This document shows positions 40,847-63,575 of a stretch of DNA of 64,000 nt, piece after piece. A model generated the notes under the pieces. The model was given only the letters and a program-made list of their open reading frames with translations. It was not told the origin of the DNA and did not search any database. The stretch's first letter is position 1. Each line of letters opens with the position of its first letter. The translations under genes and the position numbers were made by a program. Where the stretch lies: positions 3,240,001-3,304,000 of the forward strand of contig LR882958.1 of assembly GCA_904830895.1 (NCBI GenBank). Reading direction: 5' to 3'. The DNA is from Planktothrix rubescens CCAP 1459/22 (GTDB lineage Bacteria; Cyanobacteriota; Cyanobacteriia; Cyanobacteriales; Microcoleaceae).

Positions 40847-40883
40847 ACAGGGTAGAGGATGTGTAATTAATTTTGTTTAGGTA

Positions 40884-41100: not shown

Positions 41101-41361
41101 TCATTGGGCAAACTCAAGAAACCCGGTTTTTTCCGAGGGACTTTTAGGGATTTCCATCAGCTTACCTGCCTAGCTCTACAAGAAGGAGAATGTCAATGCT
41201 AAGATTAAGGAATTGTTGAATTATGGATTTAGGCTCATTGCAGCTTAAACTATTGTGATAGGACAGGTCTATCTTGTTGATTCTATCAAGGGTAAAGAAT
41301 TTGAGGGTGCAGCTATCTTACCCGAAGTCAAAAATTGAGTTCTACCAGCCATTAATCAACT

Positions 41362-44300: not shown

Positions 44301-45711
44301 GAATATAACCAATATTCAAGACCAACTCTATGTTCAACCCCAACGTCGCCAAGAGTTTGTTCAACGATTGGAAGAATTGGGTGCAATTGTCAGGTTTGAG
44401 TCTCAAATTCGACGCTTAGATGGACAGTTAACTTGGATTTCAGAAAATGCTTTTGCTGTCCGAGATGAAGCTGGAAACCTACTCCATTATGAAGGAACCG
44501 TTGAAGATATTAACGAGCGCAAACAAGCAGAAGCCGCCCTACAAAGGGCAATGGAACAGTTAGAAATTCGGGTAGAAGAACGCACTGCCGCCCTCCGAGA
44601 AGCCAATCATCAATTAGTTCGAGAAGTTGCCGAAAGAACCAGGATTGAAAATGCCTTACGAGAGTCGGAAGCTGAATTGAGAGCTTTATTTGCTGCGATG
44701 ACAGATGTAATTACAGTGTTTGATACAGAAGGAAGATATAAAAAAATTGTCACCACAAATTCAGAGGTTTTATATAGTCCCACAGAAGAACTGCTTGGGA
44801 AAACTGTGTTTGAAGTTTTTCCAGCTAGTCATGCCACTTTATTTTATAATCAAATTCAAGAAGTATTAAACACAAATCAAACTTTAAATATTGAATATAG
44901 TTTAGTTGCTTCTGACTATCAACCCGGACATCATGGAACTAATTCATCTCCTTTGAATCCTGGAGATGAAGTTTGGTTTGCAGCAATGGTGTCTCCGATG
45001 CCGGATAATTGTGTAATTTGGGTAGCAAGAAATACAACGGAAAGACGCCGGGTTTTAGAAGCATTACAAGCAGAAAGAGAAAAATCGGAACGGTTATTAC
45101 TGAATATTCTGCCTCCGTCCATTGCCGAACAACTTAAACAAAATCAGCATTCTATTGCCGAACGCTTTGAACAAGCTACGATTATGTTTGCAGATATTGT
45201 TGATTTTACCGGATTTTCTGCTCGCATTTCTCCCTCAGAATTAGTCAATTTCCTGAATCAAGTTTTCTCCGCTTTTGATGAATTAGCCGAAAAACATCAT
45301 TTAGAAAAAATTAAAACCATTGGAGATTCCTACATGGTGGCGGGCGGTTTACCCACTCCTCGCCATGACCACGTGGAAGCGATGGCAGAAATGGCTTTAG
45401 ATATGCAGGCAGAAATTCGCCGATTTCAAGGACAAATGGGTCAATCTTGTAATTTAAGAATTGGAATTAATACCGGGCCAGTGGTGGCGGGTGTAATTGG
45501 CACGAAAAAATTTATCTATGATTTATGGGGAGACGCCGTTAATATTGCTTCTCGGATGGAATCCCAAGGAGAAGTGGGTAAAATCCAAGTTACAGCCACT
45601 ACTAAAAACCTTTTAAATGGTAAATATGACTTTGAAGAACGGGGTTTAATTGATGTTAAAGGTCGTGGAGAAATGCTCACCTATTGGTTAACTAAACGCC
45701 GATTGGTATAA
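41362..45711 (+). CDS. Adenylate cyclase with UrtA/AmiC-like sensor and six PAS domains
   Basis: 1449 residues. Residues 1-370 have the fold of type-I branched-chain amino acid/urea-binding proteins (VRVGLLHSLSGAM, GASDCFTFEQKAQKL, FGCWTTASRHAV, YPASYEGLE). There is no signal peptide or membrane helix, so this sensor is cytoplasmic. A coiled coil (about 385-455) leads into six PAS domains (about 456-568, 577-689, 698-810, 815-930, 935-1055 and 1106-1235). PAS 1 and 2 are almost identical. The class III cyclase domain (about 1250-1449) has both metal aspartates (FADIVDFT near 1276, TIGDSYM near 1320). The adenine-selecting Lys (KIKTIG) and Asp (YDLWGD) and Arg in ASRM point to cAMP rather than cGMP. 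Confidence 0.9.
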   Translation: MSGVRVGLLHSLSGAMAYRERPLLETELMTIAQINDQGGVLGQIIEPVIEDGASDCFTFEQKAQKLIQQDGVTTLFGCWTTASRHAVRPVLEAFNAQLWYPASYEGLENCSQIFYTGFCANQQVELTINWLLRNQKTRCYLLGWDQVFSYTLNKLMKVHLKHYGGEVVGEAYLPSSTMDFEAIITRIRQAQPDIIINTLRGDRNLSFYRQFYESGIRAADLPILATSFSESEAQKLQEAAVGHFSCFHYFQSLNTPENHQFVQVFKRFYGEERVINNSMATAHTQIHLWKQAVELAESFDVERVKIAAYGQCFVSPGGLVRLEPNHHVAKVCRIGQVLPNQQFEVLYTSEKLIKPLPWLGFNEDNFNASGIVFELLSEVSQGIERAEQLEQKSIELEATKAQLQQEIETRKQFELALQKANEQLEKKVAERTAALKESNDNLVQEIVQHQRSENALRMATDQLQTVLEAVPGTVSWIDSDLCYIEVNQRLANMLNLPRERFIGQHIGFLGTSSEFQDFVQYLFDSPEIDAYREVRNQVNGEWRHYLIVAQKYNYNRAAFVVGIDITERKQAEESLRNAKNQLQTVLEAVPGTVSWIDSDLCYIEVNQRLSNMLNLPRESFVGQHIGFLGTSSEFQDFVQYLFDSPEIDAYREVRNQVNGEWRHYLIVAQKYNHNQAAFVVGIDITDRKQAEESLRNAKNQLQTVLEAVPGTVSWINSDLRYIEVNQRLADMFGMPRETFIDQHIGFLGNHSGFTQFIEDLFNSYAIDAFQEVSFVLHNKLRYYLIVAQKYNDNQAAFVVGIDITERREAEAALRLTQDQLEAVLDVVPGTVSWISSDLRYLGVNRYLASTFDLQPEDFVNQDIGFLKASFEFNDFVQNFFDYPEKDSYQEVMSVIQGKPRNYLIVAHKYNQNQAAFFVGIDITERKQAEEALKQAEANYRSIFENAVEGIFQTTPTGIYLSANPALARIYGYQSPEELIQNITNIQDQLYVQPQRRQEFVQRLEELGAIVRFESQIRRLDGQLTWISENAFAVRDEAGNLLHYEGTVEDINERKQAEAALQRAMEQLEIRVEERTAALREANHQLVREVAERTRIENALRESEAELRALFAAMTDVITVFDTEGRYKKIVTTNSEVLYSPTEELLGKTVFEVFPASHATLFYNQIQEVLNTNQTLNIEYSLVASDYQPGHHGTNSSPLNPGDEVWFAAMVSPMPDNCVIWVARNTTERRRVLEALQAEREKSERLLLNILPPSIAEQLKQNQHSIAERFEQATIMFADIVDFTGFSARISPSELVNFLNQVFSAFDELAEKHHLEKIKTIGDSYMVAGGLPTPRHDHVEAMAEMALDMQAEIRRFQGQMGQSCNLRIGINTGPVVAGVIGTKKFIYDLWGDAVNIASRMESQGEVGKIQVTATTKNLLNGKYDFEERGLIDVKGRGEMLTYWLTKRRLV

Positions 45712-45921
45712 TAACATGAATGTTGGAATTAACCTCCTATTTCTTTAATCAATAGACATTTTTAGAAACTCTTATTGATTTCCACGTATAGAGCTATATT
45801 CCGCCTGAAATTTAATTGGTTGTTAAACTAAACGCTAACAGCCAATTAAGTCACGCAATTGTCGGAAATGTTTCCCTGCTATACTTATAGCCTAGTGGCA
45901 AAAAATGTCCACACAGTATTG

Positions 45922-46476
45922 ATGGCTCTCACAAATTCTATGCAGAAACCCGATATTCCAGCTAATGAAAGCGATCGCTTAGTAGCACTAGATCGTTACA
46001 AGATTCTCGATACCTTGCCAGAGCAGGTGTACGACGATTTGACGCAACTAGCGGCGGATATATGCGGAACCCCGATCGCGCTCATCTCATTAGTTGACAA
46101 AGATCGCCAGTGGTTTAAGTCCCGCGTTGGCATTGACGCAACCGAAACACCTCGTGATATTTCTTTTTGTGGTCATGCAGTTGCGGAAGGTTCTATTTTA
46201 AATGTTCCTGATGCCAGCCTCGATCCTCGCTTTGCTGACAATCCACTGGTCGCACAATATCCGAATATTCGTTTTTATGCTGGAGTTCCTTTAATTACTG
46301 ATGATAATTTTGCTTTAGGAACGCTATGTGTGATCGATCGCCAACCTCGCTATCTCACTGAGCAACAAATCAGTCAACTAGAAGCCTTGAGTCGGCTGGT
46401 CATCAGTCAATTTGAGCTAAGACTCAAGGAAGAGTCATTTCGGCTACTTAGCATCTGTGGTCGAATCCTCCGATGA
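45922..46476 (+). CDS. GAF domain: 5' part of a frameshifted hybrid kinase gene
   Basis: 184 codons from the ATG at 45922 (an upstream TTG would add 21 residues). The GAF domain is full: LDTLPEQVYDDLTQLAADICGTPIALISLVDKD, then PRDISFCGHAV and FYAGVPLITDDNFALGTLCVID. The frame ends 20 bases into the following kinase frame, at EESFRLLSICGRILR. Removing one base near 46447-46450 would give RLLASVVESSDDAI, a normal GAF-to-PAS transition. These are therefore two halves of one gene, broken by a frameshift or a sequencing error. Confidence 0.8.
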   Translation: MALTNSMQKPDIPANESDRLVALDRYKILDTLPEQVYDDLTQLAADICGTPIALISLVDKDRQWFKSRVGIDATETPRDISFCGHAVAEGSILNVPDASLDPRFADNPLVAQYPNIRFYAGVPLITDDNFALGTLCVIDRQPRYLTEQQISQLEALSRLVISQFELRLKEESFRLLSICGRILR

Positions 46477-49400
46477 CGCAATTATCACTAAAACTATAGA
46501 GGGGATTATCACCAGTTGGAATCCTGCTGCTGAGAGATTATTTGGATATTCAGAGGCTGAAGCAATCGGGCAACCTATTTCTATGCTTTTTCCCCCTGAC
46601 CGCTTGGATGAGGAACCTCAAATTTTCGCGCGTCTCATGCGAGGAGAACGGGTAGAACATTTTGAAACTGTCCGTATCAGCAAAGAAGGTAAAAGCATTG
46701 AGGTCTCGGCAACTATCTCTCTTTTAAAGAACGCCGCAGGAGAGGTGGTCGGGGTTTCTAAAATTTTGCGCGATATTAGCGATCGCAAACAGGCGGAAAA
46801 GTCTTTACAAGAGTCTCAACAGTTTATTCAAACAGTGATCGATACTGTGCCACTGCCATTGTTTTGGAAAGATCGATCATCGGTCTTTTTAGGATGCAAT
46901 CAGCAATTTGTGCGAATCTTAGGTGCGCCATCATCAAAAGAGGTTGTTGGCAAGACTGATTTCGATTTGTTACCCACAGAAGAGGAGGCGAGCGCTTTTC
47001 AAGCCGACGATCGGGGCGTGATGGAATCTGGTCAAGCTAAACTGGGAATCGAAGAAATGTTGACTTTCGCTAATGGTGAACAAAGATGGCTAGAAACTCA
47101 TAAAGCTCCTCTACGAGACTGGTCAGGTAATGTGATTGGGATGGTAGGGACGTTTCAAGATGTCACCGATCGCAAACAAGCTGAATTAGAACTACAAAAA
47201 AACACAGAGCGTTTAGTTTTTGCTCTTAAATCTGGAGCGATCGGTTGGTGGGAATGGGATCTGCAAAGCGATATTGCTGTTTGGGATGATCGGGTATACG
47301 AACTGTATGGAGTTTCCAACCAAACAAACCCTCAGCCTACTTACGAAATTTGGAAGAATGCGCTACATCCCCATGATGCTGAGGCTATTGAAGCAATAAA
47401 TCGCAAAATTGCGGCGGGACAAATAGACGAATATGATACAGAGTTTCGAGTTGTGCATCCTGATGGCAGTATTCATTTCCTCAAAGCCTATGGAATGCTC
47501 AAACGCGATGCAGATGGTAAGCCTCAGAGCATTACTGGGATCAATTTTGATGTTAGCGATCGCAAAGAATTTGAAGTGCAATTACAGCAAACAACTGATC
47601 GCCTATCTTTAGCACTCAAGTCTGGGGCGATCGGCTGCTGGGAATGGGATATTCAACAGGATTTTCTGGTTTGGGATGATCGGATGTATGAACTGTATGG
47701 ATACTTAAAAGAAAATTATTCCCATTTGCCTTATGAAATTTGGGCAAACGCAGTACATCCCGATGATCGTAACGCTACTGAAACTTTACTCCAGAAAGCC
47801 ATTTTAGGACAAGCTGAATATGATTATGAGTTTCGAGTCATTCATCCCGATCGCAGCGTTCACTTCATTAAAGCCTATGGAAAGGTTAAACAAGATAGTC
47901 AAGGTAATGCTGAAAGTATGATTGGCATTAACTTTGATATTAGCGATCGCAAACAAGCCGAGCAAATTATTCTCCAACAAGCAAATCGAGAAACTCTATT
48001 GCGAGCAATTACTCAGCGTATCCGTCAATCCCTCGATCTCTCAATAATTTTTGATACCGCTTGTCAAGAAATTCAGCAATTACTGCAATCCGATCGCGTC
48101 GGTATTTTCAAATTCTATCCTGAATCCAATTTTGATGATGGTGAATTTGTCGCCGAATCCGTTGTCGATGGATTTACTTCAGCAATGGAAGTTCACATTC
48201 ACGACCATTGCTTTGGCGAAGGCTATGCCGCCGCCTATGCCCAAGGTCGAATACAGGTCTTGAATGATATAGATAATGCTGGGCTGATGGACTGCCATCG
48301 TGATGTCTTGGCTGAATTTCAGGTGCGGGCAAATCTGGTGATTCCATTACTATGTGGCAACAACCTATGGGGCTTAGTGTGCATCCATCAATGCGCTCAT
48401 ACTCGCCAATGGCAAGAGCATGAGATTAATCTGATTCAACAAATTGCTAATCAATTAGCGATCGCTATTCAACAAGCCAGTCTCTATGAGCAACTTCAAG
48501 AGGAACTATTAATACGTCAGCAATCTCAATCGAAAATAGCGCAGCAATTGCGAGAACAGCAAACCTTAGCGACAATCACCAATAAAATTCGCGAATCACT
48601 TAGTATCAAAGAGATTCTGGCAGTGGTGACTCAACAGGTTAAAGATATGCTGTCTGGCGATCGCGCGATCATCTTTCAACTATTTGATAATGGTAACAGC
48701 CAAATTGTCGAAGAATCTGTACATAGTAACTTTCTCAATCTCAAAGCCCTTAATTGGGACAACGAAGTTTGGTCACAGGAAATTCTCGATTGCTATTGGC
48801 AAGGCAAGCCTCGCATTGTTCCCGATGTGATGAATGACATTTGGACAGAATGCCTAGTGGAATACTCGCTCAAAGGTCAGATCAAGTCCAAAATTGTCGC
48901 GCCAATTCTCCTAGAGTCGCACATTAGCGAAAATCATCGCTGGGTAGCAACGGACGGATATAAAAAGCTGTGGGGTGTTTTAGTAGTCCATGCCTGTGCA
49001 GAACAGCGAGAATGGCAAGATTCAGAAGCTCAACTGCTCCAACAAATTGCGAATCAATTAGCGATCGCTATTCAGCAAGCTAATCTATATGAGCAATCTC
49101 AACAAGAAATTGCGGAACGTAAACAAGCCGAGCAACAATTAACGGAAACCAACCAACAACTCGCCCGTGCAACCAGACTCAAAGACGAATTTCTCGCCAA
49201 TATGAGCCACGAACTGCGGACACCGCTCAATTCGATTTTGGGAATGAATGAAGCTCTACAGGAAGAAGTATTTGGCGGTATTAATGAGCGTCAACTTAAA
49301 GCATTACAAACCATTGAGAGTAGCAGTAGGCATCTTTTAGCATTGATTAATGACATTCTCGATGTTGCCAAAATTGAGTCTGGACAAGTGACGCTAGAGC

Positions 49401-50347
49401 TAACAGCGACAGATATTGACAGCCTCTGCAAGTCGAGCCTAGCATTTATCAAACAGCAAGCATTAACAAAGCGAATTCAATTAATACCTAGAATTCCTAA
49501 GCATTTGCCAAAAATAATGCTAGATGAAAGGCGGATTCGACAAGTCTTAATCAATCTGCTCAATAATGCTGTTAAATTTACTCTGGAAGGAGGGACAATT
49601 ACTTTAGAAGTATCGCAAGTTCAACTTGAAAGTAGTACAACTAATCCAACGCCCCTAAAATACTTAAAAATAGCCGTGATTGATACTGGAATAGGCATCT
49701 CAGCAGAGAACATCCAGAAACTGTTCCAGCCCTTTATCCAAATCGATAGTGCGCTGAACCGACAATATAATGGCACTGGATTGGGTTTGGCTTTAGTCAA
49801 AAGACTTGTTGAAATTCATGGAGGAACCGTAGAACTGACAAGTGAGTTGGGAGTCGGTAGTTGCTTTGCGATTAATCTTCCCATTAATATCGTCTCCCCA
49901 GCGATTGAAGAACAAACTGAGCAGGACTTGTCAGGACAGTCTCAGATAGGTCAAAGCCAAACTGAAGGACTAATTTCACCCTTAATTTTGCTGGCAGAAG
50001 ATAACGAGGCTAATATTGCGACATTCTCCAGTTACCTCGAAGCTAAGGGCTACCGCATTTTATCAGCAACTGATGGACAACAGGCGATCGATCTTGTTAA
50101 AGCGGAGCATCCCGATTTGATTTTGATGGATATCCAGATGCCAGTTATGGATGGATTAGAGGCAATTAAACAAATTCGCCTCGATCCTAATCTGGCTGAT
50201 ATTCCAATTATTGCGCTGACGGCTCTAGCAATGGAAGGCGATCACGAAAGATGTCTGGCAGTAGGAGCTAATGAATATTTAAGCAAGCCTATTAAGCTAA
50301 AAGCATTAGCTGATACAATTCGGAATATTTTAAAAAATAGGAACTAA
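46457..50347 (+). CDS. Hybrid sensor histidine kinase (PAS4-GAF2-HK-receiver)
   Basis: 1296 residues from a GTG. Domains in order are PAS 1-115, PAS 120-240, two related PAS_3 domains (about 245-375 and 375-500) and phytochrome-type GAF domains (about 515-680 and 710-880). Then come HisKA (about 905-970, MSHELRTPLNS with His about 919), HATPase (about 1015-1140, with N-box and GTGLGLALVK) and a receiver (about 1175-1292, LILMDIQMPVMDG with Asp about 1224). The first GAF lacks the Cys-His pair of phycobilin-binding domains, so it probably binds no bilin. It is the downstream part of a frameshifted gene, with the upstream GAF at 45922. The HATPase end is almost identical to that of the next protein. 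Confidence 0.9.
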   Translation: MVESSDDAIITKTIEGIITSWNPAAERLFGYSEAEAIGQPISMLFPPDRLDEEPQIFARLMRGERVEHFETVRISKEGKSIEVSATISLLKNAAGEVVGVSKILRDISDRKQAEKSLQESQQFIQTVIDTVPLPLFWKDRSSVFLGCNQQFVRILGAPSSKEVVGKTDFDLLPTEEEASAFQADDRGVMESGQAKLGIEEMLTFANGEQRWLETHKAPLRDWSGNVIGMVGTFQDVTDRKQAELELQKNTERLVFALKSGAIGWWEWDLQSDIAVWDDRVYELYGVSNQTNPQPTYEIWKNALHPHDAEAIEAINRKIAAGQIDEYDTEFRVVHPDGSIHFLKAYGMLKRDADGKPQSITGINFDVSDRKEFEVQLQQTTDRLSLALKSGAIGCWEWDIQQDFLVWDDRMYELYGYLKENYSHLPYEIWANAVHPDDRNATETLLQKAILGQAEYDYEFRVIHPDRSVHFIKAYGKVKQDSQGNAESMIGINFDISDRKQAEQIILQQANRETLLRAITQRIRQSLDLSIIFDTACQEIQQLLQSDRVGIFKFYPESNFDDGEFVAESVVDGFTSAMEVHIHDHCFGEGYAAAYAQGRIQVLNDIDNAGLMDCHRDVLAEFQVRANLVIPLLCGNNLWGLVCIHQCAHTRQWQEHEINLIQQIANQLAIAIQQASLYEQLQEELLIRQQSQSKIAQQLREQQTLATITNKIRESLSIKEILAVVTQQVKDMLSGDRAIIFQLFDNGNSQIVEESVHSNFLNLKALNWDNEVWSQEILDCYWQGKPRIVPDVMNDIWTECLVEYSLKGQIKSKIVAPILLESHISENHRWVATDGYKKLWGVLVVHACAEQREWQDSEAQLLQQIANQLAIAIQQANLYEQSQQEIAERKQAEQQLTETNQQLARATRLKDEFLANMSHELRTPLNSILGMNEALQEEVFGGINERQLKALQTIESSSRHLLALINDILDVAKIESGQVTLELTATDIDSLCKSSLAFIKQQALTKRIQLIPRIPKHLPKIMLDERRIRQVLINLLNNAVKFTLEGGTITLEVSQVQLESSTTNPTPLKYLKIAVIDTGIGISAENIQKLFQPFIQIDSALNRQYNGTGLGLALVKRLVEIHGGTVELTSELGVGSCFAINLPINIVSPAIEEQTEQDLSGQSQIGQSQTEGLISPLILLAEDNEANIATFSSYLEAKGYRILSATDGQQAIDLVKAEHPDLILMDIQMPVMDGLEAIKQIRLDPNLADIPIIALTALAMEGDHERCLAVGANEYLSKPIKLKALADTIRNILKNRN

Positions 50348-50482
50348 GATATATATAGTTGAGGCTTGCTAAAAAAAACTAAAATGATAAGTAGCTAGGC
50401 GCAATTAAATATAAATATAAAATCCCAAAAAACGCAATCGCTGGTTGCTCTGCTTCATTAATTAAAAGGAGTACAAAAAGAA

Positions 50483-53400
50483 ATGGAAAAAACGGAAAAA
50501 GATTATCTAGCCCTACAAGAAAGTGATGAGAAGTTTCGGCTTGCCTTTGATAAGGCAAATATTGGTATGTGTTTAGTCGATCTTCAAGGCAATCTTTTTC
50601 AGGTTAACGAGAAGATAAGTGAAATATTTGGTTATAGCCAAGACGAATTGAAAGGTTTAAACGTTAGCGATTTGGCAATTGCAGAGGACAAACAGATTAG
50701 TCAAAAGTTTATACATGGGGCGGTAGTAGCGCATGACGATAGCGGGAGATTGGAAAAACGCTATCGTCATCGACTGGGGCATATCATTTATGGAGAAGTC
50801 TCGTCATCTTTGGTACGGGATACCGAGGGAAATCCTTTATATTTTATTTCCCAAGTGCAGGATATCTCTGAACGTAAACGATATGAAATTGATCTAGAGG
50901 AAGCTCGTAATGCTCTTGCAAAAGCCAATGCGGAATTAGAAGAAAGGGTGTCTGTAAGAACAGCAGAGTTGCAAAAGAGTGAAACGGCTCTACGTCAGAG
51001 TGAAATGCAATTTCGTCGTTATTTTGAACAGAATCTCATTGGGATGGCAATGACTTCTCCTAGTAAGGCTTGGATCAATGTGAACGACAAACTCTGTGAG
51101 ATTTTAGGGTATTCTTTTGCCGAATTACAGGAATTATCTTGGGACAAAATTACCCATCCCGAAGATTTAGCTATAGATTTAGAGAAGTTTAATCTGGTAA
51201 TCGATGGTCAAATTGAAGGTTATGAAATTGATAAACGCTTTATTCATAAAACTGGTCAAATAGTCTATACCAGTCTGGCTGTGCAATGTCATAGAAAACC
51301 TAATGGTAAGCTGGATTTCTTTATAGCGTTGATCCAAGATATTAGCGATCGCAAAAAAGCTGAAATCGCTTTACAAGAAAGCCAAGACTTTCTGCAAAAA
51401 GTGACCGATACTTCACCAAATATTATCTACATTTACGATCTCCAACAACAATGTAATATCTATGTGAACCGAGAGATAGCAACAATTCTGGGATATAGTC
51501 CTATAGAGATTCAGGCAATGGGGGCAAATTTTTTCTCAACGCTCATGCACCCCGATGATCTGCAAAATATGCCTGCTGAATATGCACGATTAGCAAGAGC
51601 ATTAGATGGCGAAATTTATGATTGTGAATACCGCATGAGAAATACTCAAGGAGAATGGCGTTGGCTCTACAGTAGGCATTCCGTATTTAGTCGAGATCTA
51701 AAAGGTCAGGTAAAATGTACTGTTGGTTCTGCACAAGACATAACTGAGCGCAAACTAGCCGAAACCCAACTTCAACAAACCTACGCAGAACTGCTCCAAG
51801 CAACTCGTCTTAAGGACGAATTTTTAGCTACCATGAGTCATGAATTGCGAACTCCACTTAATGCCATCCTCGGAATGACTGAGCTTCTTCAGGAAGAGAT
51901 CTATGGTTCCATCAATGAAGAACAGATGACGGCGCTACAAACTATTGAAAATAGTGGTTCCCACTTACTAGAATTAATTAATGATGTTCTAGATGTAGCC
52001 AAAATTGAATCGGGGCAAGTGCATTTGGAGATATCGAGTATTTCTATCGCGGCTCTCTGTGAATCAAGTCTCCTTTTTATCCAACAACAAGCTCGAAAAA
52101 AGAATATTCAAGTCCACAGGGTTCTACCGTCAAACCTACCGAATATCCATGTGGATGAACGCCGCATTCGTCAAGCCCTAATTAATCTTCTCAATAATGC
52201 TGTTAAATTTACTCTGGAAGGAGGGACAATCACTTTAGAAGTATCAGAAGTTCGCCTTGAAAGCAGTACAACCAATCTAACGCCCATAAATTACTTAAAG
52301 ATAGCCGTGATTGATACGGGGATAGGCATCTCATCGGAGAACATCCCGAAACTGTTCCAACCCTTTATCCAAATCGATAGTGCGCTGAACCGTAAATATG
52401 ATGGCATGGGATTGGGTTTGGCTTTAGTCAAAAGACTTGTAGAACTTCATGGAGGAACCGTAGAACTGACAAGTGAGTTGGGAGTCGGTAGTTGCTTTGC
52501 GATTAATCTTCCCATTAATTTCGGCGACCCATCAATCGAAGATCAAACTAACTCTGACTTGTCAGAACAAGATCAGATTGGTCAAAGCCAAACTGAAGGA
52601 CTAATTTCACCCTTAATTTTGCTGGCAGAAGATAACGAGGCTAATATAATGAATATAAATACCGTTAATGATTTAGAGCTAGTTACTCTCACAAATTGCG
52701 ATCGCGAACCGATACATATACCGCGATCGATACAGCCTCACGGGTTACTCATGGTACTCAGTGAAACTGATCTAAGCATCGTGCAGGTTAGTGCCAATAG
52801 CCTTGATATTTTGGGGGTTGAACCCTTAGATTTGCTCGATCGCCCATTAGCTGATTTTATTGGTAGCGATCGCATTACCGATATTGCTAATTGTTTAGAG
52901 CGTGATTTTGAGAATATTAATCCCTTAAGCATTAGCTTTGTTCGCGCAGGATCTGACACCTTAGACTTTAAGGGGATTGTCCATCGCGCTATCAGTGGCG
53001 AAATAGTTTTAGAGCTAGAGCCGATCTTAGATAATTCTAATAAGGACTTTTTCCATTTTTATCATCAAATCAAGAACACTCTTAGCAAAATTCAGGCGAC
53101 CTCGGATCTGTCCAAACTGTGTAATGTAATCGTGCAGGAAATCAGCGAAATTACGGGCTTTGATCGCGTTATGATCTATCGTTTTAACGAAGGTGGGGAT
53201 GGCAATATCATTGCTGAGATAAAACAGCCAGAACAAAAAGCATTTCTGGGATTACGCTATCCCGACTCTGATATTCCCAAACAAGCAAAACATCTCTACA
53301 CGCTCAATTGGTTGCGCCTAATTCCAGACATGGATTACCAACCTTGTCAATTAGTAACAAGCCCCACAGCAAATCCAGAAGTGGAGATCCAGCCCCTTGA

Positions 53401-54952
53401 CATGAGCTACTGCGGCTTGCGCTCCATATCGCCGCTCCATATTGAATATCTCAAAAATATGGAAGTTGCAGCATCGCTAACTATTTCCCTAATTCAGCAG
53501 CAAAAGCTATGGGGTTTGATTGCCTGTCATCACAATAGCCCCAAATTTATCCCCTACGAAGTACGGACTGTTTGCGAGTTTTTGGGACAGCTTATGTCTA
53601 CGGAATTAGCTAATAAGGAAGCGAACGAAAATCTTGATTACAAATTGCAACTTAAAAATATTCAAAGTCAATTTGTCGAACGTCTCAGCAAAGCTAACGA
53701 CTTTGTGAAAGAACTTACAGCCGATCCAGAAGCCTTATTAAAACTGACGGGCGCTGCGGGGGCGGCGATATGTGACAACGAAGAGATTACTTTGCTCGGT
53801 AAAACTCCGCAACTCGATCAATTAAAGCTGCTCTTGACTTGGATTCCGCCGCAATTTGATCAGGATATTTTTGTCACCGATGCTCTATCTCATTTGTATC
53901 CTGAAGCAGTAGCATATAAAGATGTCGCTGGTGGGCTGCTGGCAATGGCGATCTCCAAGATTCAACAGCGCTATGTGATATGGTTCCGTCCTGAGATCGC
54001 CCAAACTGTGACTTGGGCGGGAAATCCAGAGAAGCCGAAACGCATAGAAGAAGATGGCTCGGTGACAATATTTCCACGTCAGTCTTTTGAGGCGTGGCAA
54101 GAAATTGTGGATGGTCGCTCTCTGACTTGGCTGGATTGCGAAGTGGCGGGGGCACGTGAATTACGACAGGCGATCGTGGATATTGTGTTACGCCAAGCGG
54201 AAGATATTGCCCTAATCAATGTGGAATTAGAACGCAGCAATAGCGAGCTAGATGCCTTTGCCTACATTGCTTCCCATGATTTAAAGGAACCTCTACGGGG
54301 TATTCATAACTATGCAACTTTCTTGTTAGAAGATTACAGTGAGCTTCTTCAGGGTGATGGTGCTGACAAATTAAATACGCTAGTACGATTGACTAAAAGA
54401 ATGGAGTCATTAATTGAATCCTTGCTGAAGTTTTCGCGTTTGGGCAGACAGGAATTGCAGATGTCGCCGATCGCTCTCGATCACTTGTTAGAGAATGTAA
54501 CAGAGTTATTTGGCATGAATCCTCAATGGGAAAATTGCCAGATTCGGATGCCCCAATCATTGCCGACAGTGTTGGGCGATCGCATTTTGCTTGAAGAAGT
54601 CTTTACTAATCTAATTTCTAATGCCTTTAAATACAATGATCAATCTGAAAAATGGGCGGAAATTGGGTGGATTGAGACTAATGCACAGAACCCTGATTTT
54701 GTGACGATCTCTGTCCACGACAATGGCATCGGTATTCGTGAGAAACATTTAGACTCGGTGTTTCGGATCTTTAAACGTTTACATTCTCCTAACAAATACG
54801 GAGGCGGAACGGGTGCGGGGTTAACTATTGTCAAAAAAATTATTGAACGTCATGGCGGCACTATTCAAGTACAATCAATTTACGGGCAGGGAACTACATT
54901 TTTGTTTACTTTACCAATTAAAGTAAATATCTCTAGCCTAGAAACTGTTTAA
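50483..54952 (+). CDS. PAS histidine kinase fused to a bacteriophytochrome kinase
   Basis: 1489 residues in two complete modules. Module 1 has three PAS domains (about 10-130, 170-295 and 300-430), HisKA (MSHELRTPLNA, His about 453), HATPase (about 560-690) and only the first 11 residues of a receiver (LILLAEDNEANI). Module 2 starts at Met723 and is a full bacteriophytochrome: PAS-2 with the biliverdin-type Cys739 (TNCDREPIHIP), GAF with the DSDIPKQAKHLY motif, PHY with PRQSFEAW, HisKA (YIASHDLKEPLRG) and HATPase. The GAF reads SPLHIEYLKNM, without the Cph1-type Cys, so biliverdin rather than phycocyanobilin is expected. GAGG lies 8 bases before Met723, so the phytochrome may also be made alone. 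Confidence 0.88.
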   Translation: MEKTEKDYLALQESDEKFRLAFDKANIGMCLVDLQGNLFQVNEKISEIFGYSQDELKGLNVSDLAIAEDKQISQKFIHGAVVAHDDSGRLEKRYRHRLGHIIYGEVSSSLVRDTEGNPLYFISQVQDISERKRYEIDLEEARNALAKANAELEERVSVRTAELQKSETALRQSEMQFRRYFEQNLIGMAMTSPSKAWINVNDKLCEILGYSFAELQELSWDKITHPEDLAIDLEKFNLVIDGQIEGYEIDKRFIHKTGQIVYTSLAVQCHRKPNGKLDFFIALIQDISDRKKAEIALQESQDFLQKVTDTSPNIIYIYDLQQQCNIYVNREIATILGYSPIEIQAMGANFFSTLMHPDDLQNMPAEYARLARALDGEIYDCEYRMRNTQGEWRWLYSRHSVFSRDLKGQVKCTVGSAQDITERKLAETQLQQTYAELLQATRLKDEFLATMSHELRTPLNAILGMTELLQEEIYGSINEEQMTALQTIENSGSHLLELINDVLDVAKIESGQVHLEISSISIAALCESSLLFIQQQARKKNIQVHRVLPSNLPNIHVDERRIRQALINLLNNAVKFTLEGGTITLEVSEVRLESSTTNLTPINYLKIAVIDTGIGISSENIPKLFQPFIQIDSALNRKYDGMGLGLALVKRLVELHGGTVELTSELGVGSCFAINLPINFGDPSIEDQTNSDLSEQDQIGQSQTEGLISPLILLAEDNEANIMNINTVNDLELVTLTNCDREPIHIPRSIQPHGLLMVLSETDLSIVQVSANSLDILGVEPLDLLDRPLADFIGSDRITDIANCLERDFENINPLSISFVRAGSDTLDFKGIVHRAISGEIVLELEPILDNSNKDFFHFYHQIKNTLSKIQATSDLSKLCNVIVQEISEITGFDRVMIYRFNEGGDGNIIAEIKQPEQKAFLGLRYPDSDIPKQAKHLYTLNWLRLIPDMDYQPCQLVTSPTANPEVEIQPLDMSYCGLRSISPLHIEYLKNMEVAASLTISLIQQQKLWGLIACHHNSPKFIPYEVRTVCEFLGQLMSTELANKEANENLDYKLQLKNIQSQFVERLSKANDFVKELTADPEALLKLTGAAGAAICDNEEITLLGKTPQLDQLKLLLTWIPPQFDQDIFVTDALSHLYPEAVAYKDVAGGLLAMAISKIQQRYVIWFRPEIAQTVTWAGNPEKPKRIEEDGSVTIFPRQSFEAWQEIVDGRSLTWLDCEVAGARELRQAIVDIVLRQAEDIALINVELERSNSELDAFAYIASHDLKEPLRGIHNYATFLLEDYSELLQGDGADKLNTLVRLTKRMESLIESLLKFSRLGRQELQMSPIALDHLLENVTELFGMNPQWENCQIRMPQSLPTVLGDRILLEEVFTNLISNAFKYNDQSEKWAEIGWIETNAQNPDFVTISVHDNGIGIREKHLDSVFRIFKRLHSPNKYGGGTGAGLTIVKKIIERHGGTIQVQSIYGQGTTFLFTLPIKVNISSLETV

Positions 54953-55008
54953 GAATTGTCTATATCCCCCAACGATTCTAAACAATCATCAAATATACAA
55001 AGTAACTT

Positions 55009-58000
55009 ATGCTAAAAATTTTGATTGTCGATGATGCTGAAAGCGATCGAGTTAGTTATGTGCGTTATTTACAATCAGACTCAGAACGCCCTTATTGCAT
55101 TATTGAAGCCGAGACGTTAGAAGAAGGGCTGGAATTATGGCGATCGCAGCAGCCAGATGTTGTATTACTAGATATCAACTTGCCCGATGGCGATGGCTTG
55201 GAATTTTTAGAAGAAATTGGTATTGAGTCGCCAACAAACAAACTACCCGTGATCATGTTAACGGGAGAAGGAGATGAGCGCATAGCGGTACGCGCCATGA
55301 AATTGGGAGCGATGGACTATGTGGTAAAAGGAGATGTGACTGCGAAATCGCTTTTAACCTTTATCGCTCAGGTACATGAAAATAATTTACTCCTTAAACA
55401 ACTAAGGCGATCGCAACTACAGCAAACAGTAATTGCCTCAATGGCGCTACATATTCGTAGATCTCACACATTTGAGGATGTCTCCAATACGATTGTCCAA
55501 GAAATACGCAGCTTTTTAGTTGCTGATCGGGTGATCATTTACCGATTTAATCCCGATATGAGTGGGGAAATTGTTGCTGAATCGGTCATTTCACCTTGGG
55601 ATTCATCCTTGAATGCTCAAATCGAAGATACTTGCTTTCAGGGAAATCTCGGCGGGGAATATCAAAAGGGTAAAGTCTTTGCGGCGCATGATATTTATGA
55701 GGCTAACCTGACGGAATGCCATATTCAACTCCTTGAAAGATTTCAGGTAAAGGCAAATCTCGTCGCCCCCATCTTGCTTAATGGCATGAATACCCTGTGG
55801 GGCTTGCTGATTGTGCATCAATGTGATGCTCCCCGCCAATGGCATGAAGAAGATATTCAGTTATTGCAGCAGCTATCCATACATTTAGCGATCTCTTTAT
55901 ATCAAGCTGAACTCTATCAAAATCTGGAAAGCCTGAATGCCTCTCTGGAGGAAAAGGTACAGGAACGGACACAAGAAATACAACTGCAAGCGCAAATGCT
56001 AGAGCAGATTAATGATGCTGTCATTTCGACGGCGATGGATGGCACGATCCTCACTTGGAACATTGGATCGGAGAAACTCTATGGATACGAGTCTCATGAA
56101 GCGATCGGGCAGAATATTAGTATGCTTTATCTAACTGAAGATTTGCCTCTCCTACAATCCTCAGTCTTGATACCGCTATTAGAAAAAGGAACTCATGAAG
56201 TTGAGCTACGGAATCGGACAAAATCAGGAAATATTCTTTATATCAACTTACGTCTTTCCCTCGTTCGGGATGAAATGGAAAATCCCATTCGCGTGATTGG
56301 TTGCTCTAATGATATTAGCGATCGCAAACAAGCTGAACTCGAACTAAGAAGGAGTGAAGGTCGTTTTCGTCAGTTGTTTGAATCTGATGTAGTTGGTACA
56401 CTCTCTGCTGATTTGCAGGGGCAAATTACTGATGCCAATGATCTTTTTCTAGATATGCTTGGATATACTCGACAGGAGCTTGAGTCGGGTTTAATCCGTT
56501 GGAACGAAATCACACCGCCCGAATATGTTGCCGCCGATTTTTATGCGATGTCACATTTATTGGAGTATGGCACGATCACTCCTTGGGAAAAACAATATTC
56601 TCGTAAAGATGGTAGTCGAGTTTCTGTACTAATAGGTGCGGTACTTCTTACAGACTCTGACGATCAAACCATTTGTATTGCCGTAGATATTAGCGATCGC
56701 AAACGCGCTGAACAAAAACTTCAGCAACTCAATCAAGAGCTAGAAACTAAGGTTGCCGAACGCACTCAAGAACTAGCACAGGTTAACAGTCTCCAAAGTG
56801 CCATCTTAGGAAGTACCAGTTACTCGATCATTTCCACCGACTTAAATGGCATTATTCAGACCTGTAATCCTTCAGTTGAAAGGATGCTCGGTTACAGTCC
56901 CTCAGAACTGATTGGCAATACGCCTGAGATTATTCACGATCGCCAAGAGGTAATTGACAGAGCCGCAGAGCTAACTGAGGAACTAAAGCAGGATATTCCT
57001 GTTGGTTTTGAAGTGTTTATTGCCAAATCCCGTCGAAATCTTGTTAACGAACAAGAATGGACTTATATCCGCAAAGATGGTTCTCGCTTTCCCGTTTCGC
57101 TATCTGTCACAGCACTTAAGGATGACAACGATCAAATTATTGGTTTCTTAGGCATTGCAAATGATATTAGCGATCGCAAAGAAGCGGAAATTGCCTTAAT
57201 TGAGAGCGAAACGAAATTCCGTCGTTTGGTAGAAGGTATTAACGACTTAATTTGGTCAACTGATAAAAATGGTGCATTCTCCTATCTATCACCTCAATTT
57301 CAAACTCTCTTTGGCTTAGAAGTCAATGAATGGATTGGCAAAAAATTTACCGATCTAGTCCATCCAGATGACCTTGATGGGTTAATCAGTGCATACAAAC
57401 AGTCTATTCGCTCTCAGCAAAAGACTAGCAATATTGAATTCCGTCATCTCCATCAAAATGGTGACTATATTTGGGTGAGTATCAATACCACACCGATTAT
57501 TAATTCTGAAGGTATCGTCATTGGTGGTCATGGAATTTTGGCAGATATTAGCGATCGCAAACAAGCCGAAGTACAGCTACAGAAAATTAACGAAGAACTC
57601 CTTCGCGCCACTAAACTCAAGGATGAATTTCTTGCCAACATGAGCCACGAACTCCGCACGCCGCTAAATTCAATCTTAGGGATGTCAGAATCTCTTAAAG
57701 ACGAGATTTTGGGATCGCTAAACGAAAAGCAATTAAAGGCGATCGGTATAGTCGAATCAAGCGGCGAACATCTTCTATCCCTAATTAATGACATTCTCGA
57801 TCTATCAAAAATCTCATCAGGGATGATGGAATTAAATACTGAATCAGTCTCAGTCAAAAATCTCTGTGATTCTAGTCTGGTCTTTGTGAGACAGCAAGCA
57901 TTTCAAAAGAAAGTGCAACTCAACAGCAACATTCCTAAGAATATCAACAAGATTAATGTCGAAGAGCGTCGCATCAGACAGGTTTTAATCAATCTGCTCA

Positions 58001-58458
58001 CTAATGCTGTCAAATTTACTCCCAGCGAAGGGCAAGTAAATCTTCTCGTTGCAGTTGGTGGCGGCGATACATGGCAAGGAGAGGCAACAATCCCCCAGTA
58101 CATCAAACTGATGAATTCACCGATGATCGTATTTCAAATCGTAGATACTGGCATTGGCATTGCTCCCAAAGATTTGCAACGCCTCTTCCAACCCTTCGTG
58201 CAAGTTAGCAGCAGTCTCAATCGTCAATACGAAGGCACGGGCTTAGGGTTAGCCCTAGTCAAGCAGATTGTCGAACTACATGGCGGTCAGGTCATGGCTG
58301 AGAGTAAAATCGGCAAAGGTAGCTCTTTCTCGGTTGCCCTACCCTATGATATATCCCAGTCTAGCGCTCCAGAATCCACAACAGTTTCGACTACTTTAGA
58401 GCCCACATTCCGCAGATATTTAAGCCAATTGAATTGCCAATTAAATTGGAATAAATAA
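55009..58458 (+). CDS. Receiver-GAF-PAS4 histidine kinase
   Basis: 1149 residues. An N-terminal receiver (1-125) has DD at 8-9, phospho-acceptor VVLLDINLPDGDG with Asp about 54, and a MDYVVKGD lysine. A GAF domain (about 150-310) is followed by a coiled coil, four PAS domains (about 325-440, 445-565, 585-725 and 730-855), HisKA (MSHELRTPLNS, His about 878) and HATPase (about 980-1125, GTGLGLALVKQIV). It starts 56 bases after the phytochrome fusion. By analogy with cph1-rcp1 pairs, its N-terminal receiver is the likely phospho-acceptor for the phytochrome, but this is inference. There is no C-terminal receiver. Confidence 0.9.
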   Translation: MLKILIVDDAESDRVSYVRYLQSDSERPYCIIEAETLEEGLELWRSQQPDVVLLDINLPDGDGLEFLEEIGIESPTNKLPVIMLTGEGDERIAVRAMKLGAMDYVVKGDVTAKSLLTFIAQVHENNLLLKQLRRSQLQQTVIASMALHIRRSHTFEDVSNTIVQEIRSFLVADRVIIYRFNPDMSGEIVAESVISPWDSSLNAQIEDTCFQGNLGGEYQKGKVFAAHDIYEANLTECHIQLLERFQVKANLVAPILLNGMNTLWGLLIVHQCDAPRQWHEEDIQLLQQLSIHLAISLYQAELYQNLESLNASLEEKVQERTQEIQLQAQMLEQINDAVISTAMDGTILTWNIGSEKLYGYESHEAIGQNISMLYLTEDLPLLQSSVLIPLLEKGTHEVELRNRTKSGNILYINLRLSLVRDEMENPIRVIGCSNDISDRKQAELELRRSEGRFRQLFESDVVGTLSADLQGQITDANDLFLDMLGYTRQELESGLIRWNEITPPEYVAADFYAMSHLLEYGTITPWEKQYSRKDGSRVSVLIGAVLLTDSDDQTICIAVDISDRKRAEQKLQQLNQELETKVAERTQELAQVNSLQSAILGSTSYSIISTDLNGIIQTCNPSVERMLGYSPSELIGNTPEIIHDRQEVIDRAAELTEELKQDIPVGFEVFIAKSRRNLVNEQEWTYIRKDGSRFPVSLSVTALKDDNDQIIGFLGIANDISDRKEAEIALIESETKFRRLVEGINDLIWSTDKNGAFSYLSPQFQTLFGLEVNEWIGKKFTDLVHPDDLDGLISAYKQSIRSQQKTSNIEFRHLHQNGDYIWVSINTTPIINSEGIVIGGHGILADISDRKQAEVQLQKINEELLRATKLKDEFLANMSHELRTPLNSILGMSESLKDEILGSLNEKQLKAIGIVESSGEHLLSLINDILDLSKISSGMMELNTESVSVKNLCDSSLVFVRQQAFQKKVQLNSNIPKNINKINVEERRIRQVLINLLTNAVKFTPSEGQVNLLVAVGGGDTWQGEATIPQYIKLMNSPMIVFQIVDTGIGIAPKDLQRLFQPFVQVSSSLNRQYEGTGLGLALVKQIVELHGGQVMAESKIGKGSSFSVALPYDISQSSAPESTTVSTTLEPTFRRYLSQLNCQLNWNK

Positions 58459-58500
58459 AAGCCCAAATCATTATATGGCAATCATTTGGGCTATTTTCAA
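58459..58500 (+). terminator. Terminator-like hairpin after the kinase block
   Basis: AGCCCAAAT (58460-58468) pairs with ATTTGGGCT (58484-58492) and is followed by ATTTTC. It closes the signalling block and lies 39 bases before the transposase gene. Confidence 0.7.
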
Positions 58501-58538
58501 TGTAGAATAATAATTAGAGTAGCTGAACAAATAAAAAT

Positions 58539-60182
58539 ATGAAAAACCCCCTAGAAGCGATAGAAATCGTGAATTTAGACCATTTAGGAATAGTAGCAGG
58601 CGTAATAGATGAGATGGAATTAGTAGAAGAAGTGAATAAAAAAGTGGGATTAAGAGGAAAAGAAGCCATAAGCCCAGGACAGGTAATGAAAGCAATGATT
58701 TTGAATGGATTAGGGTTTTTGAGCGCGCCGCTGTACCTATTCGAGAACTTTTTCGTAGGGAAAGCAACAGAACATTTAATAGGAGAAGGAGTAATAGCAG
58801 AGCAACTAAATGATGACAGAATCGGGAGAGCATTAGATAAATATTATGAAGTAGGAACAACAAATCTATTCACAGCAATAGCCCTAAAAGCCGCCCAAAA
58901 ATTCCAAGTAGAAAAGGAAAGCGTACACCTAGATAGCAGTTCGATATCAGTAGAGGGAGAATACAAAAGTAAAGAAGAAGAAAATCAGGAAATAGAAGAA
59001 GAAATGAAAGCCATAAAAATAGTGCATGGATACTCAAGAGATAAAAGACCAGATCTGAAACAATTTATAATAGATATGGTAGTAAGCGGAGACGGAGATG
59101 TGCCATTATATCTAAAAATAGATGACGGAAACGCCGATGATAAAAGCGTATTTGTAGAAAGACTAAAAGAATTTAAAAAGCAATGGACATTTGAAGGAAT
59201 ATGTGTAGCAGACAGTGCATTATACACAGCAGAGAATATAGGAGCAATGGCAGGAATGAAATGGATAACAAGAGTACCATTAAGTATAAAAGAAGCGCAA
59301 AATAAGATTGTAGAGATAGAAGAGGAAGAATGGGAGCAGAGTCAAATAAAAGGATATAGAATAGCAACGAAATCAAGTGAGTACGCAAACATAAAACAAA
59401 GATGGTTAGTAGTAGAAAGTGAAGCCAGGAAAAAAGCAGCCCTAAAAAAAATATCAGAGCAAGTAGAAAAACAGTTAGAGAACGCCAAAGCATCACTGCG
59501 GAAGCTATTGAAACAAGAGTATGCTTGCATAGCGGATGCAGAGATTGGGATAAAAATGTTATCAGATTCGTGGAAATATCACGAAATAAAAGAAATAAAA
59601 TGCACAGAAAAAGCCAGTAAAAAAAGCCAAAGTAAAACAGAAAAAGGGAATCAAGAAAAGACAATAGTTTATCAAGTAACAGGAGAGATAGAACCTAGAG
59701 AATCAGTGATAGAAGCGGAAAAAATCAAAGCCGGAAGATTTATATTAGCGACAAATATATTAGACAAGAAAGAGGTGAGTAATGAAAAGCTATTAGCCGA
59801 ATACAAAGCGCAGCAAAGTAACGAGAGAGGATTTAGATTTTTAAAAGATCCGTTATTTTTCACAGCAAGTGTATTCGTGAAAAAACCAGAGAGAGTGGAA
59901 GCAATAGCGATGATAATGGGATTGTGCTTGTTAGTGTATAACCTAGCTCAAAGAAAATTGAGAAAACAATTAGAAACAGCCCAAGAAGGGGTAAGAAATC
60001 AGGTCAAGAAATTAACGAATAAACCGACGATGCGGTGGATATTTCAAATGTTCCAAGCGGTGCATTTAGTCAGGATAAATGGAGAAAACCAAGTGAGTAA
60101 CTTAACCCAAGAACGTCAAGAAATATTGCAGCATTTAGGGAAAGATTGCTGTCAATACTATTTAATGATTCCTGGGGGATAA
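58539..60182 (+). CDS. IS1634-like (DUF4277) transposase
   Basis: 547 residues with no frame break. The N-terminal DUF4277-type start (IEIVNLDHLGIVAGVIDEM, GQVMKAMILNGLGF, DRIGRALDKYYEVG) precedes a DDE catalytic core. The likely carboxylates lie in VHLDSSSISVEG, ICVADSALYTAEN and NERGFRFLKDPLF. The gene uses A-rich codons throughout (long runs of GAA, AAA and ATA), unlike its neighbours, consistent with recent arrival. I could not find convincing terminal inverted repeats by eye, so the IS ends are not marked. Confidence 0.9.
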   Translation: MKNPLEAIEIVNLDHLGIVAGVIDEMELVEEVNKKVGLRGKEAISPGQVMKAMILNGLGFLSAPLYLFENFFVGKATEHLIGEGVIAEQLNDDRIGRALDKYYEVGTTNLFTAIALKAAQKFQVEKESVHLDSSSISVEGEYKSKEEENQEIEEEMKAIKIVHGYSRDKRPDLKQFIIDMVVSGDGDVPLYLKIDDGNADDKSVFVERLKEFKKQWTFEGICVADSALYTAENIGAMAGMKWITRVPLSIKEAQNKIVEIEEEEWEQSQIKGYRIATKSSEYANIKQRWLVVESEARKKAALKKISEQVEKQLENAKASLRKLLKQEYACIADAEIGIKMLSDSWKYHEIKEIKCTEKASKKSQSKTEKGNQEKTIVYQVTGEIEPRESVIEAEKIKAGRFILATNILDKKEVSNEKLLAEYKAQQSNERGFRFLKDPLFFTASVFVKKPERVEAIAMIMGLCLLVYNLAQRKLRKQLETAQEGVRNQVKKLTNKPTMRWIFQMFQAVHLVRINGENQVSNLTQERQEILQHLGKDCCQYYLMIPGG

Positions 60183-60408
60183 AGATTAAAAGAAAGGGGG
60201 AAATAGTTGTAAAAAATCTAAGTTATGAGTCAAGATGAGAACTCTTGGCTGAAAAGAATTTGGTGATAAAATACAAATATATTAAAAAAATGGAGTTCTA
60301 TTTCTATTAAAAAATAGTAATTATTTATGTTTAGTTAAATAGCGGTAAACTAGCTATATAATTTGATAGTAAAGCCTCGGAAGTTCACCGAAAAATTGGA
60401 ATAGGTTT

Positions 60409-60882
60409 CTATTTTTTAGAATTAGTGGAAAATTTGACCCCTATCTGCGGAATGTGGGCTTTAATCCATCCCGTGCGATCTCTATCAGTCAAAACCCGCA
60501 CTTTTTGCCATTGTTTATCATCACTTTCTCCCAAAACAACCACTTTTTCTTGATAGGCAATGCCACCAATTCGGTTAGCCTCGGTACTGGGAGTATCGCG
60601 TAAAATCAAACCGATAGGCTGGGTCACAATTGCCTGATAAGCACCAGGTTCAAGTTTTTCTGCTTCTGGAGTTGGGATCGGGGTTGGCGTGACCGCGGCT
60701 TGGGGAGTAACTGGCTTTGCTGCTATTTTTGTTTGGGGGTTATCATTAGGAAAGGTCGGACGTTCTGGAAGTTCTGATAAACGGGCTGCAAAATATAAGG
60801 CGGTAGCGACCGTTGCACCCGCTAAAATTAAAATTGCCAGAAAAAAACCCACAATAAATTTAAAAACACCATAAAGATTCAT
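60409..60882 (-). CDS. Membrane-anchored SH3-domain protein
   Basis: 157 residues from the ATG at 60882 (MNLYGVFKFIVGFF). One membrane helix (about 8-30) is followed by a proline/threonine-rich linker (PTPIPTPEAEKL) and a bacterial SH3 domain (about 80-142): IVTQPIGLILRDTPSTEANRIGGIAYQEKVVVLGE. SH3b domains of this kind usually sit in the periplasm and bind cell wall. The SH3 gene lies 62 bases downstream of ycf46 on the same strand, so they may be cotranscribed. Confidence 0.8.
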   Translation of the reverse strand: MNLYGVFKFIVGFFLAILILAGATVATALYFAARLSELPERPTFPNDNPQTKIAAKPVTPQAAVTPTPIPTPEAEKLEPGAYQAIVTQPIGLILRDTPSTEANRIGGIAYQEKVVVLGESDDKQWQKVRVLTDRDRTGWIKAHIPQIGVKFSTNSKK

Positions 60883-60944
60883 AGTTTTGGGAATAGTTCT
60901 ATACATAGGTTTTAAACCCCGATCTAAAGATACCTATAATACCA

Positions 60945-62456
60945 TCAACCGGATAGGCGACGATTTAAACTACTCTGTCGAGAAGCTAAACGAGCTTTCC
61001 CCGCAGCAGCCCAATTTTGCAGAAACTCAATTTGCTCCTTCGCTGTTCTGGCTAAGGGGACAATTTGACTCGCCGCTTCTAAAATATCATCGGTGACGAA
61101 ATCTCGGTTTTGACTAAAGCCAATGTGCATCGCTTCAATTAAAGTCTGTTCAATTTCCGCCCCAGAAAAATCCGGGGTTTCATAGGCTAATCGTTCTATA
61201 TCATAGTTTCTAATATTTTGGGGACGTAGTTTGGATAAATGAACTTCAAAAATGGCTTTTCGTTCTTCTTGATAGGGTAATCCCACAAAGAAAATTTCAT
61301 CAAATCGCCCCTTTCTTAACATTTCCGGGGGCAAAGATTGAATATTATTGGCCGTTGCGACCACAAAAACCGGGGAGGTTTTTTCGGCTAACCAAGTAAT
61401 AAATGTCCCAAATACCCGATTACTGGTTCCTGAATCTCCTCTACCATCTAATCCCGAAAAGGCTTTATCAATTTCATCAATCCATAACACACAAGGCGCT
61501 AGGGCTTCTGCTAATTGAATCATTTGTCGGGTGCGAGATTCCGATTCTCCAACCAGTCCCGCAAATAAACGCCCCACATCTAATCTTAATAATGGTAAAT
61601 GCCAATGATGGGCGATCGCTTTTGCCGTTAAGGATTTTCCCGTTCCTTGAATTCCTACTAATAATAACCCTCTGGGATAGGGTAAACCATATTGTCTCGC
61701 CCGTTCTGAAAAGGCACTTCCCCGGAGTAATAACCAATCTTTTAAATTATCTAATCCCCCAATATCCGAGATATTTTCCTGGGCAGAATAGAAGTCTAAA
61801 ATTTGAGTTTGACGAATGGTTTGGCGTTTTTCTTCTAATATTAATTCAATATCATCAGCCTGTAATTCTCCATGGGTAGCGATCGCCTTTGCCAAAATTC
61901 GGCGAATCCTTTCCATCGAAAGTCCTTGACAGGAACGCACCATTTCATCTAATAAACGAGGATCTAAAGGCTGTCCTGTTGTAATTAATAATCGTTCAAC
62001 TTCCGTCTTAATTTCTATTAGATTGGGTAAGGGAAATTCTAAAACCGTTAACACTTCACTCAAGTCAGAGGGAATCGCAATTTGGGGAGAAATAATTACT
62101 AAATTCTTAGGTTGAGACTTTAATTTTTTGGCTAAATTTCTTAATTTCCGCGAAATTGAAATATCTTCTAAAAATCTATGAAAGTCCCTTAAAATAAAGA
62201 CAGCAGGCATCGCCTCTGGTAATTTTTCTACGAATTCTAAGGCTTGTAACGGATTCCGTTTTCCGGCGCCTAAATCATTAGGATTTCCCTGCTGATATCC
62301 TTCCACAAAATCCCAGACATAAACCCCACGGTTGCCCTGATCTTTTGCCGCTTGTTTAATTACAGTTTCGACTCGTTCTTCTTCTAAGGTCGGAATATAG
62401 ATAATAGCGTAGCGCGATCGCAATAATAACTTCAATTCCTCATTGAATTTACTCAT
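60945..62456 (-). CDS. ycf46: AAA+ ATPase, Ycf46-like
   Basis: 503 residues, the normal Ycf46 length. An N-terminal degenerate AAA-like region (about 1-215) precedes the active AAA domain: Walker A GIQGTGKSLTAKAIA (about 267-281), Walker B VLWIDEIDKAF (about 324-334), sensor FVVATANNIQSLPPEMLRKGRFDE and the C-terminal helical lid DFSGAEIEQTLIEAMH. The protein is conserved in cyanobacteria and red-algal plastids and has been linked to inorganic-carbon use in Synechocystis. It lies next to the yidC-khpB-yceD group on the same strand, separated by a G-rich spacer. Confidence 0.92.
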   Translation of the reverse strand: MSKFNEELKLLLRSRYAIIYIPTLEEERVETVIKQAAKDQGNRGVYVWDFVEGYQQGNPNDLGAGKRNPLQALEFVEKLPEAMPAVFILRDFHRFLEDISISRKLRNLAKKLKSQPKNLVIISPQIAIPSDLSEVLTVLEFPLPNLIEIKTEVERLLITTGQPLDPRLLDEMVRSCQGLSMERIRRILAKAIATHGELQADDIELILEEKRQTIRQTQILDFYSAQENISDIGGLDNLKDWLLLRGSAFSERARQYGLPYPRGLLLVGIQGTGKSLTAKAIAHHWHLPLLRLDVGRLFAGLVGESESRTRQMIQLAEALAPCVLWIDEIDKAFSGLDGRGDSGTSNRVFGTFITWLAEKTSPVFVVATANNIQSLPPEMLRKGRFDEIFFVGLPYQEERKAIFEVHLSKLRPQNIRNYDIERLAYETPDFSGAEIEQTLIEAMHIGFSQNRDFVTDDILEAASQIVPLARTAKEQIEFLQNWAAAGKARLASRQSSLNRRLSG

Positions 62457-62460
62457 AGAA

Positions 62461-62500
62461 AGTGGGAGCAGGGGGAGGTAGGGGGGCAGGGGGAGCGTCC
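62461..62500. repeat. G-rich low-complexity spacer
   Basis: GTGGGAGCAGGGGGAGGTAG followed by more GGGGG blocks separated by A/C. It lies between yceD and ycf46 and encodes nothing. On the plus strand it could form a G-quadruplex. Confidence 0.6.
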
Positions 62501-62542
62501 TCGCTCGCTGACTATCAAATGTTAACTATCAACACCTCTTAA

Positions 62543-63043: not shown

Positions 63044-63096
63044 AATTATTTTCCCACCTGCCAAAAATAAGCAAGGCTAAACAAAGTTTTCGGTGT

Positions 63097-63573: not shown

Positions 63574-63575
63574 TT

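Follow-up and report, generated by a model that had tools for sequence, protein, structure and literature searches.

In phytochromes, the N-terminal segment is threaded through a loop that belongs to the protein's own GAF domain. We take NCDREPIHIP, DIP and PRxSF to be motifs with phytochrome roles. Bacteriophytochrome histidine kinases (PDB 8uph, full length; 9jry and Cph1 2vea, photosensor) have these motifs, and the domain order PAS-GAF-PHY-HisKA-HATPase, in common with a chimeric protein that we describe here from the bloom-forming cyanobacterium Planktothrix rubescens CCAP 1459/22. For hybrid histidine kinases, a report on GacS chimeras describes how exchanging the receiver rewires the kinase (PMC8175716). 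Across the titles and abstract beginnings surveyed, no phytochrome with an upstream kinase is described, and none pairs a phytochrome with two histidine kinase domains.

Within the window (the 64,000-nucleotide stretch of DNA that was analysed), positions 50483–54952 (+) form a single stop-free frame of 1489 codons in the ORF list. It runs through three PAS domains, HisKA and HATPase, then a 12-residue receiver stub, then a whole bacteriophytochrome with its own HisKA/HATPase (Pfam). We refer to the kinase half as K2, to the preceding hybrid kinase as K1 and to the following kinase as K3. The parts are as follows.

50483–54952 (+): the chimera, consisting of the K2 kinase (residues 1–710), the receiver stub (711–722) and the bacteriophytochrome (723–1489); ORF, Pfam and motifs.
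52190–52647 (+): tract derived from K1 that closes the K2 part, its start approximate and its end the last base common with K1; silent differences and outgroup comparison.
52613–52648 (+): receiver stub LILLAEDNEANI, residues 711–722; sequence and motif reading.
52637–52640 (+): GAGG, with an 8-nt gap to the internal ATG; sequence and a control count of internal ATGs.
52649–54952 (+): bacteriophytochrome, complete, with a native-type start; stand-alone orthologues with a matching N-terminal region.

The K2 half contains PAS-type folds (best Pfam stretches 17–128, 207–289 and 326–416) and a kinase core (HisKA 444–511, HATPase 558–678). SHELRTP at 452, NAVKF at 572, DTGIGI at 611 and GLGLAL at 643, presumably the HisKA His, N, G1 and G2 boxes, place it among the histidine kinases. 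No complete receiver follows the core, so K2 does not classify as a hybrid histidine kinase; Pfam gives no Response_reg match in the chimera, where only 12 receiver residues are present. In the phytochrome half, PAS_2 (739–847), GAF (875–1037) and PHY (1058–1239) all score over the cut-off, forming the photosensory core of a bacteriophytochrome. HisKA and HATPase are each matched in two stretches of the chimera, the second pair with its motifs at 1263–1449, and the kinase motifs of both cores are present. So are the photosensor motifs NCDREPIHIP (beginning at residue 738), DIPKQA, SPLHIEYL (at 983), WAGNP and PRQSF. We take the first to be the N-terminal biliverdin Cys segment and SPLHIEYL to be the GAF SPxH site; as in bacteriophytochromes, a Cys lies in the N-terminal segment and none at the SPxH site. 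A photosensor usually stands at the protein N-terminus, although this is perhaps not defining; here it begins at residue 723 unless an internal start is used. A PDB search matched 105 sequences, and among the 60 listed most are named as, or made from, phytochromes. The open frame and the Pfam set bear out, at the level of the reading frame, what the sequence-only reading had proposed, one protein with two kinase cores and a photosensor in the middle, and the fusion is confirmed as real in this sequence.

This kinase–phytochrome fusion did not turn up in any relative that we examined. A PHY survey of 244 cyanobacterial genomes, an even sample of a larger set, gave 108 matches (the sum over the matches column) in 62 genomes; the chimera frame (1496 codons in this survey) is the longest, the next having 1224, and all frames in a separate survey are also shorter. 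Nine other long PHY frames (1110–1354; seven from the 244-genome survey, one of these from the own genome, and two from the separate survey) were looked at for the side of extension: in none of these nine do more than 31 residues precede the matched photosensor, and their extra length is therefore C-terminal. Further frames run to 1079–1216 residues (separate survey) and to 924–1043 residues (244-genome survey). Among the best 80 of 468 genome loci, no more than 48 open codons precede 77 of the 78 N-terminal phytochrome matches; ahead of the one in L044 there are 224, with 60 residues read, and the L047 phytochrome is without its N-terminus. Looking for the same fusion in related genomes, as had been suggested, brought up no second genome with it among those examined: in 61 family genomes (44 matched at 1e-55, own included), no other match extends into the kinase side by more than 46 residues. 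The exact junction was not found in viral contigs, and 0 of 156 plasmid records has one place covering 80%.

Among the genomes compared, the cluster that holds the chimera is a strain-specific, foreign-looking island. Four sensor ORFs lie in it, together with one insertion sequence.

45714–60458 (no strand): strain-specific segment (island) of 14.7 kb, where the conspecific Planktothrix genome G080 has 71 bp; genome comparison.
45859–46476 (+): ORF with a GAF domain, probably the K1 head split off by a frameshift; domain assigned by eye, link to K1 proposed.
46457–50347 (+): K1, a PAS/GAF hybrid histidine kinase with a complete C-terminal receiver, source of the tract; ORF, Pfam and K1/K2 comparison.
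55009–58458 (+): K3, REC-GAF-PAS-HK, its C-terminal receiver lost at the insertion sequence; Pfam and alignment with L040 and L027.
58402–60458 (+): IS1634-family insertion sequence with its transposase at 58539–60182, forming the right island edge; G080 matches, inverted repeats and plasmid annotation as IS1634.

G080 matches the window at 38167–45713 and 60459–64000, with the 71 bp between, and these flanks are colinear at ~98%. The same flanking neighbours lie close together, with no kinases between them, in three congeners: G003, G007 (~1.2 kb apart) and G004. In G001, G002, G005 and G008 the left neighbour was not found in the stretch compared; these four, and G006, which was left out, do not bear on the empty site. 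Read by eye, the left neighbour (41362–45711) seems to have a receptor-like N-terminus, similar repeated PAS units of ~360 bp and a nucleotide cyclase domain; it gives self-matches at ~360 bp spacing.

The neighbours on both sides of the chimera appear to be damaged. At 46440–46480 the GAF ORF and K1 overlap in different frames, with EESFRLLSI in one and VESSDDAIITK taken up at ~46450; judged by related proteins, the sequence should be continuous there, and a frameshift splitting off the K1 head is probable. The K3 gene begins 57 bp downstream of the chimera and is without a C-terminal receiver, whereas its relatives in L040 and L027 have one; it is truncated at the insertion sequence, and no REC remnant was found to the right of that element. 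The element has inverted repeats at 58396–58418/60442–60464 and five near-full G080 matches (98–100%). Copies at 98–100% occur in G080, on its chromosome as well as its plasmids, and on further plasmids of P. agardhii; the two G080 plasmid matches share coordinates with the P. agardhii NIES-204 records AP017993 and AP017994, on which the species inference rests. A 361-bp part of K1 (47593–47953) is 82% identical to a plasmid of Synechococcus sp. PCC 7502.

The phytochrome half has its nearest relatives elsewhere. Among the best 80 of 468 genome matches these are Pseudanabaena-type loci, at 67–76% identity, and their stand-alone phytochromes (74–76% in L024, L025 and L040; 73% in L026; 67–68% in L027 and L028) have a matching start region, which agrees with the earlier view that this segment begins at a natural start. 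The four own-genus phytochrome genes are at ~54–55%. In a 26-row tree (one row, L032, filling only 10% of columns), the chimera phytochrome falls among Pseudanabaena-type rows with support of 98/97, the next fork having 100/100, and the own-genus rows form a separate group. Its end branch is 0.19, against 0.20 and 0.21 in two sister rows, and the phytochrome half is thus without sign of relaxed evolution.

In all six Pseudanabaena-type loci the phytochrome is a separate gene with an upstream stop, and in the three read further (L040, L027 and L025) a short receiver protein follows, which we take to be an Rcp-like regulator. In the chimera, by contrast, the phytochrome is fused and the regulator missing: a close copy was not found among 52 matches in the own genome, of which the top one (33%) is the K1 receiver. 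A full receiver and stop ahead of the phytochrome in relatives had been named as evidence against the fusion; the stop is there in all six loci, but no window gene is matched upstream at 1e-5 in L027, L028 and L040 (~8 kb each) or L025 (1.7 kb), L024 and L026 having <0.5 kb of upstream sequence. We rejected on this basis a simple loss of receiver and spacer between donor genes already adjacent, which is conceivable, if unlikely, for the real donor; judged from these loci, kinase and phytochrome were therefore brought together, rather than merely losing the relatives' spacer.

The junction bears on how they were joined. K1/K2 DNA likeness, taken per 20 codons, is 48–78% up to ~52190; from there to the junction it is 88–100% in every window but one, which lies in the linker (52508–52567, 77%). 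Identity is 90.6% across the last 149 codons compared, and the 68 bp ending at 52647 are identical. Base 52648 is the first to differ from K1 (codon 722, silently, ATA vs ATT), and the K1-derived tract terminates at the phytochrome start codon. That the chimera was joined inside a receiver domain is upheld, K1 likeness running through the stub and stopping at the junction. The near-identity to K1 claimed for the last 150 bases is real and extends further than was thought, but does not hold throughout, given the linker window. Silently differing codons among identical residues fall from 61/102 before the tract to 13/129 inside it, and with a Pseudanabaena homologue (L203) as outgroup, K1 and K2 share a residue that differs from its own at 23 of the tract's 149 columns, versus 4 of 154 before (in both counts the K1 slice stops four codons short of the junction). 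The tract therefore derives from K1 after the split from the L203 homologue, which upholds the preceding hybrid kinase as its source. Before the tract, K2 departs alone at 26 columns and K1 at 10; inside it, K2 has 7 changes of its own and K1 has 4. The tract holds 20 replacement and 13 silent differing codons, with 8 of the 20 replacements in one linker window. Judged from these counts, the rest of K2 is an older, distinct paralogue of K1, and only the last ~455 bp before the junction come from K1.

The explanation that we favour as a whole, and consider reasonably likely, is an acquired sensor cluster in which the K1 tail was copied onto K2 up to the phytochrome start, giving one dual-kinase photoreceptor. 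Counted against it is the single genome with the fusion among those searched, so that there is no sign of selection keeping it. The damaged neighbours also count against it, as does the internal start, from which the phytochrome might be made by itself. An assembly or sequencing artefact joining two genes might be suspected from the near-identical K1/K2 stretch adjoining the junction, but K1 likeness stops there, K2 differs upstream as a distinct paralogue, and the region lies inside a 5.46-Mb contig with flanks colinear with G080; we regard this as highly improbable. The fusion might instead be a by-product of decay, its open frame recent and useless as a fusion in an island that is falling apart. 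The probable K1 head frameshift, K3 cut at the insertion sequence, the lack of a close regulator copy and the limitation of the island to one strain in the genomes compared all fit such decay, and the replacement and silent codons of the tract, with their concentration in the linker window, can be read as weak constraint. Set against this are 1489 open codons with their motifs present, a phytochrome branch that is not long, and the tallies of own changes in the tract (7 in K2, 4 in K1), and we think decay unlikely.

Translation could also, or only, start at the internal Met (residue 723, ATG 52649–52651), the phytochrome then working alone and the upstream kinase being a separate activity or a by-product. 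The GAGG at 8-nt spacing noticed in the sequence-only reading is indeed present before the native-type start, and four long window genes together have 86 internal ATGs in frame, of which just 3, among them this one, have a GGAG/GAGG/AGGA tetramer 4–10 nt upstream. Such a site is uncommon but within chance, and is not strong evidence for initiation; the same GAGG stands in K1, as inherited receiver coding sequence. No stop precedes the ATG either, so a free phytochrome needs initiation within a translated region. This alternative is possible, if rather unlikely.

On the favoured explanation, one Planktothrix lineage would have taken up a sensor kinase cluster with a bacteriophytochrome from a Pseudanabaena-type cyanobacterium, this direction of transfer being the one we propose. 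The K1 tail (HATPase, linker and first receiver strand) would then have been copied onto K2, ending in frame at the phytochrome start codon; copying and fusion may have been a single step, or a conversion may have preceded a deletion. The product, most likely made as one chain of 1489 residues, would comprise a PAS-controlled kinase, the 12-residue receiver stub as a linker and a putative biliverdin-binding, light-controlled kinase, and would probably dimerise in parallel, with both DHp domains forming the contact. The K2 core would no longer be able to pass phosphate to its own receiver. Since the relatives' regulator is missing, each core would have to rely on a receiver from elsewhere; the closest candidate acceptors would be the K3 N-terminal receiver and the K1 receiver. 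Coupling of light to the first (K2) kinase may also occur. The chimera is probably a working, strain-specific dual-kinase photoreceptor formed by K1-to-phytochrome recombination. It is a more doubtful proposal that red/far-red light gates the unrelated upstream PAS-controlled kinase, with two cues integrated in one dimer and sent to foreign receivers.

The locus offers a traceable new sensor protein that arose when adjacent kinase genes recombined on a segment gained by horizontal transfer, and for which donor clade, tract source and empty site are all identified. Compared with bacteriophytochrome histidine kinases, 722 residues including a whole kinase core precede its photosensor, which is not so in the frames checked; if working, the chimera tests whether a phytochrome can bear a complete kinase ahead of its N-terminus and pass a signal to it. 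The GacS chimeras are designed receiver swaps (PMC8175716), whereas here the receiver has been replaced by a photosensor kinase.
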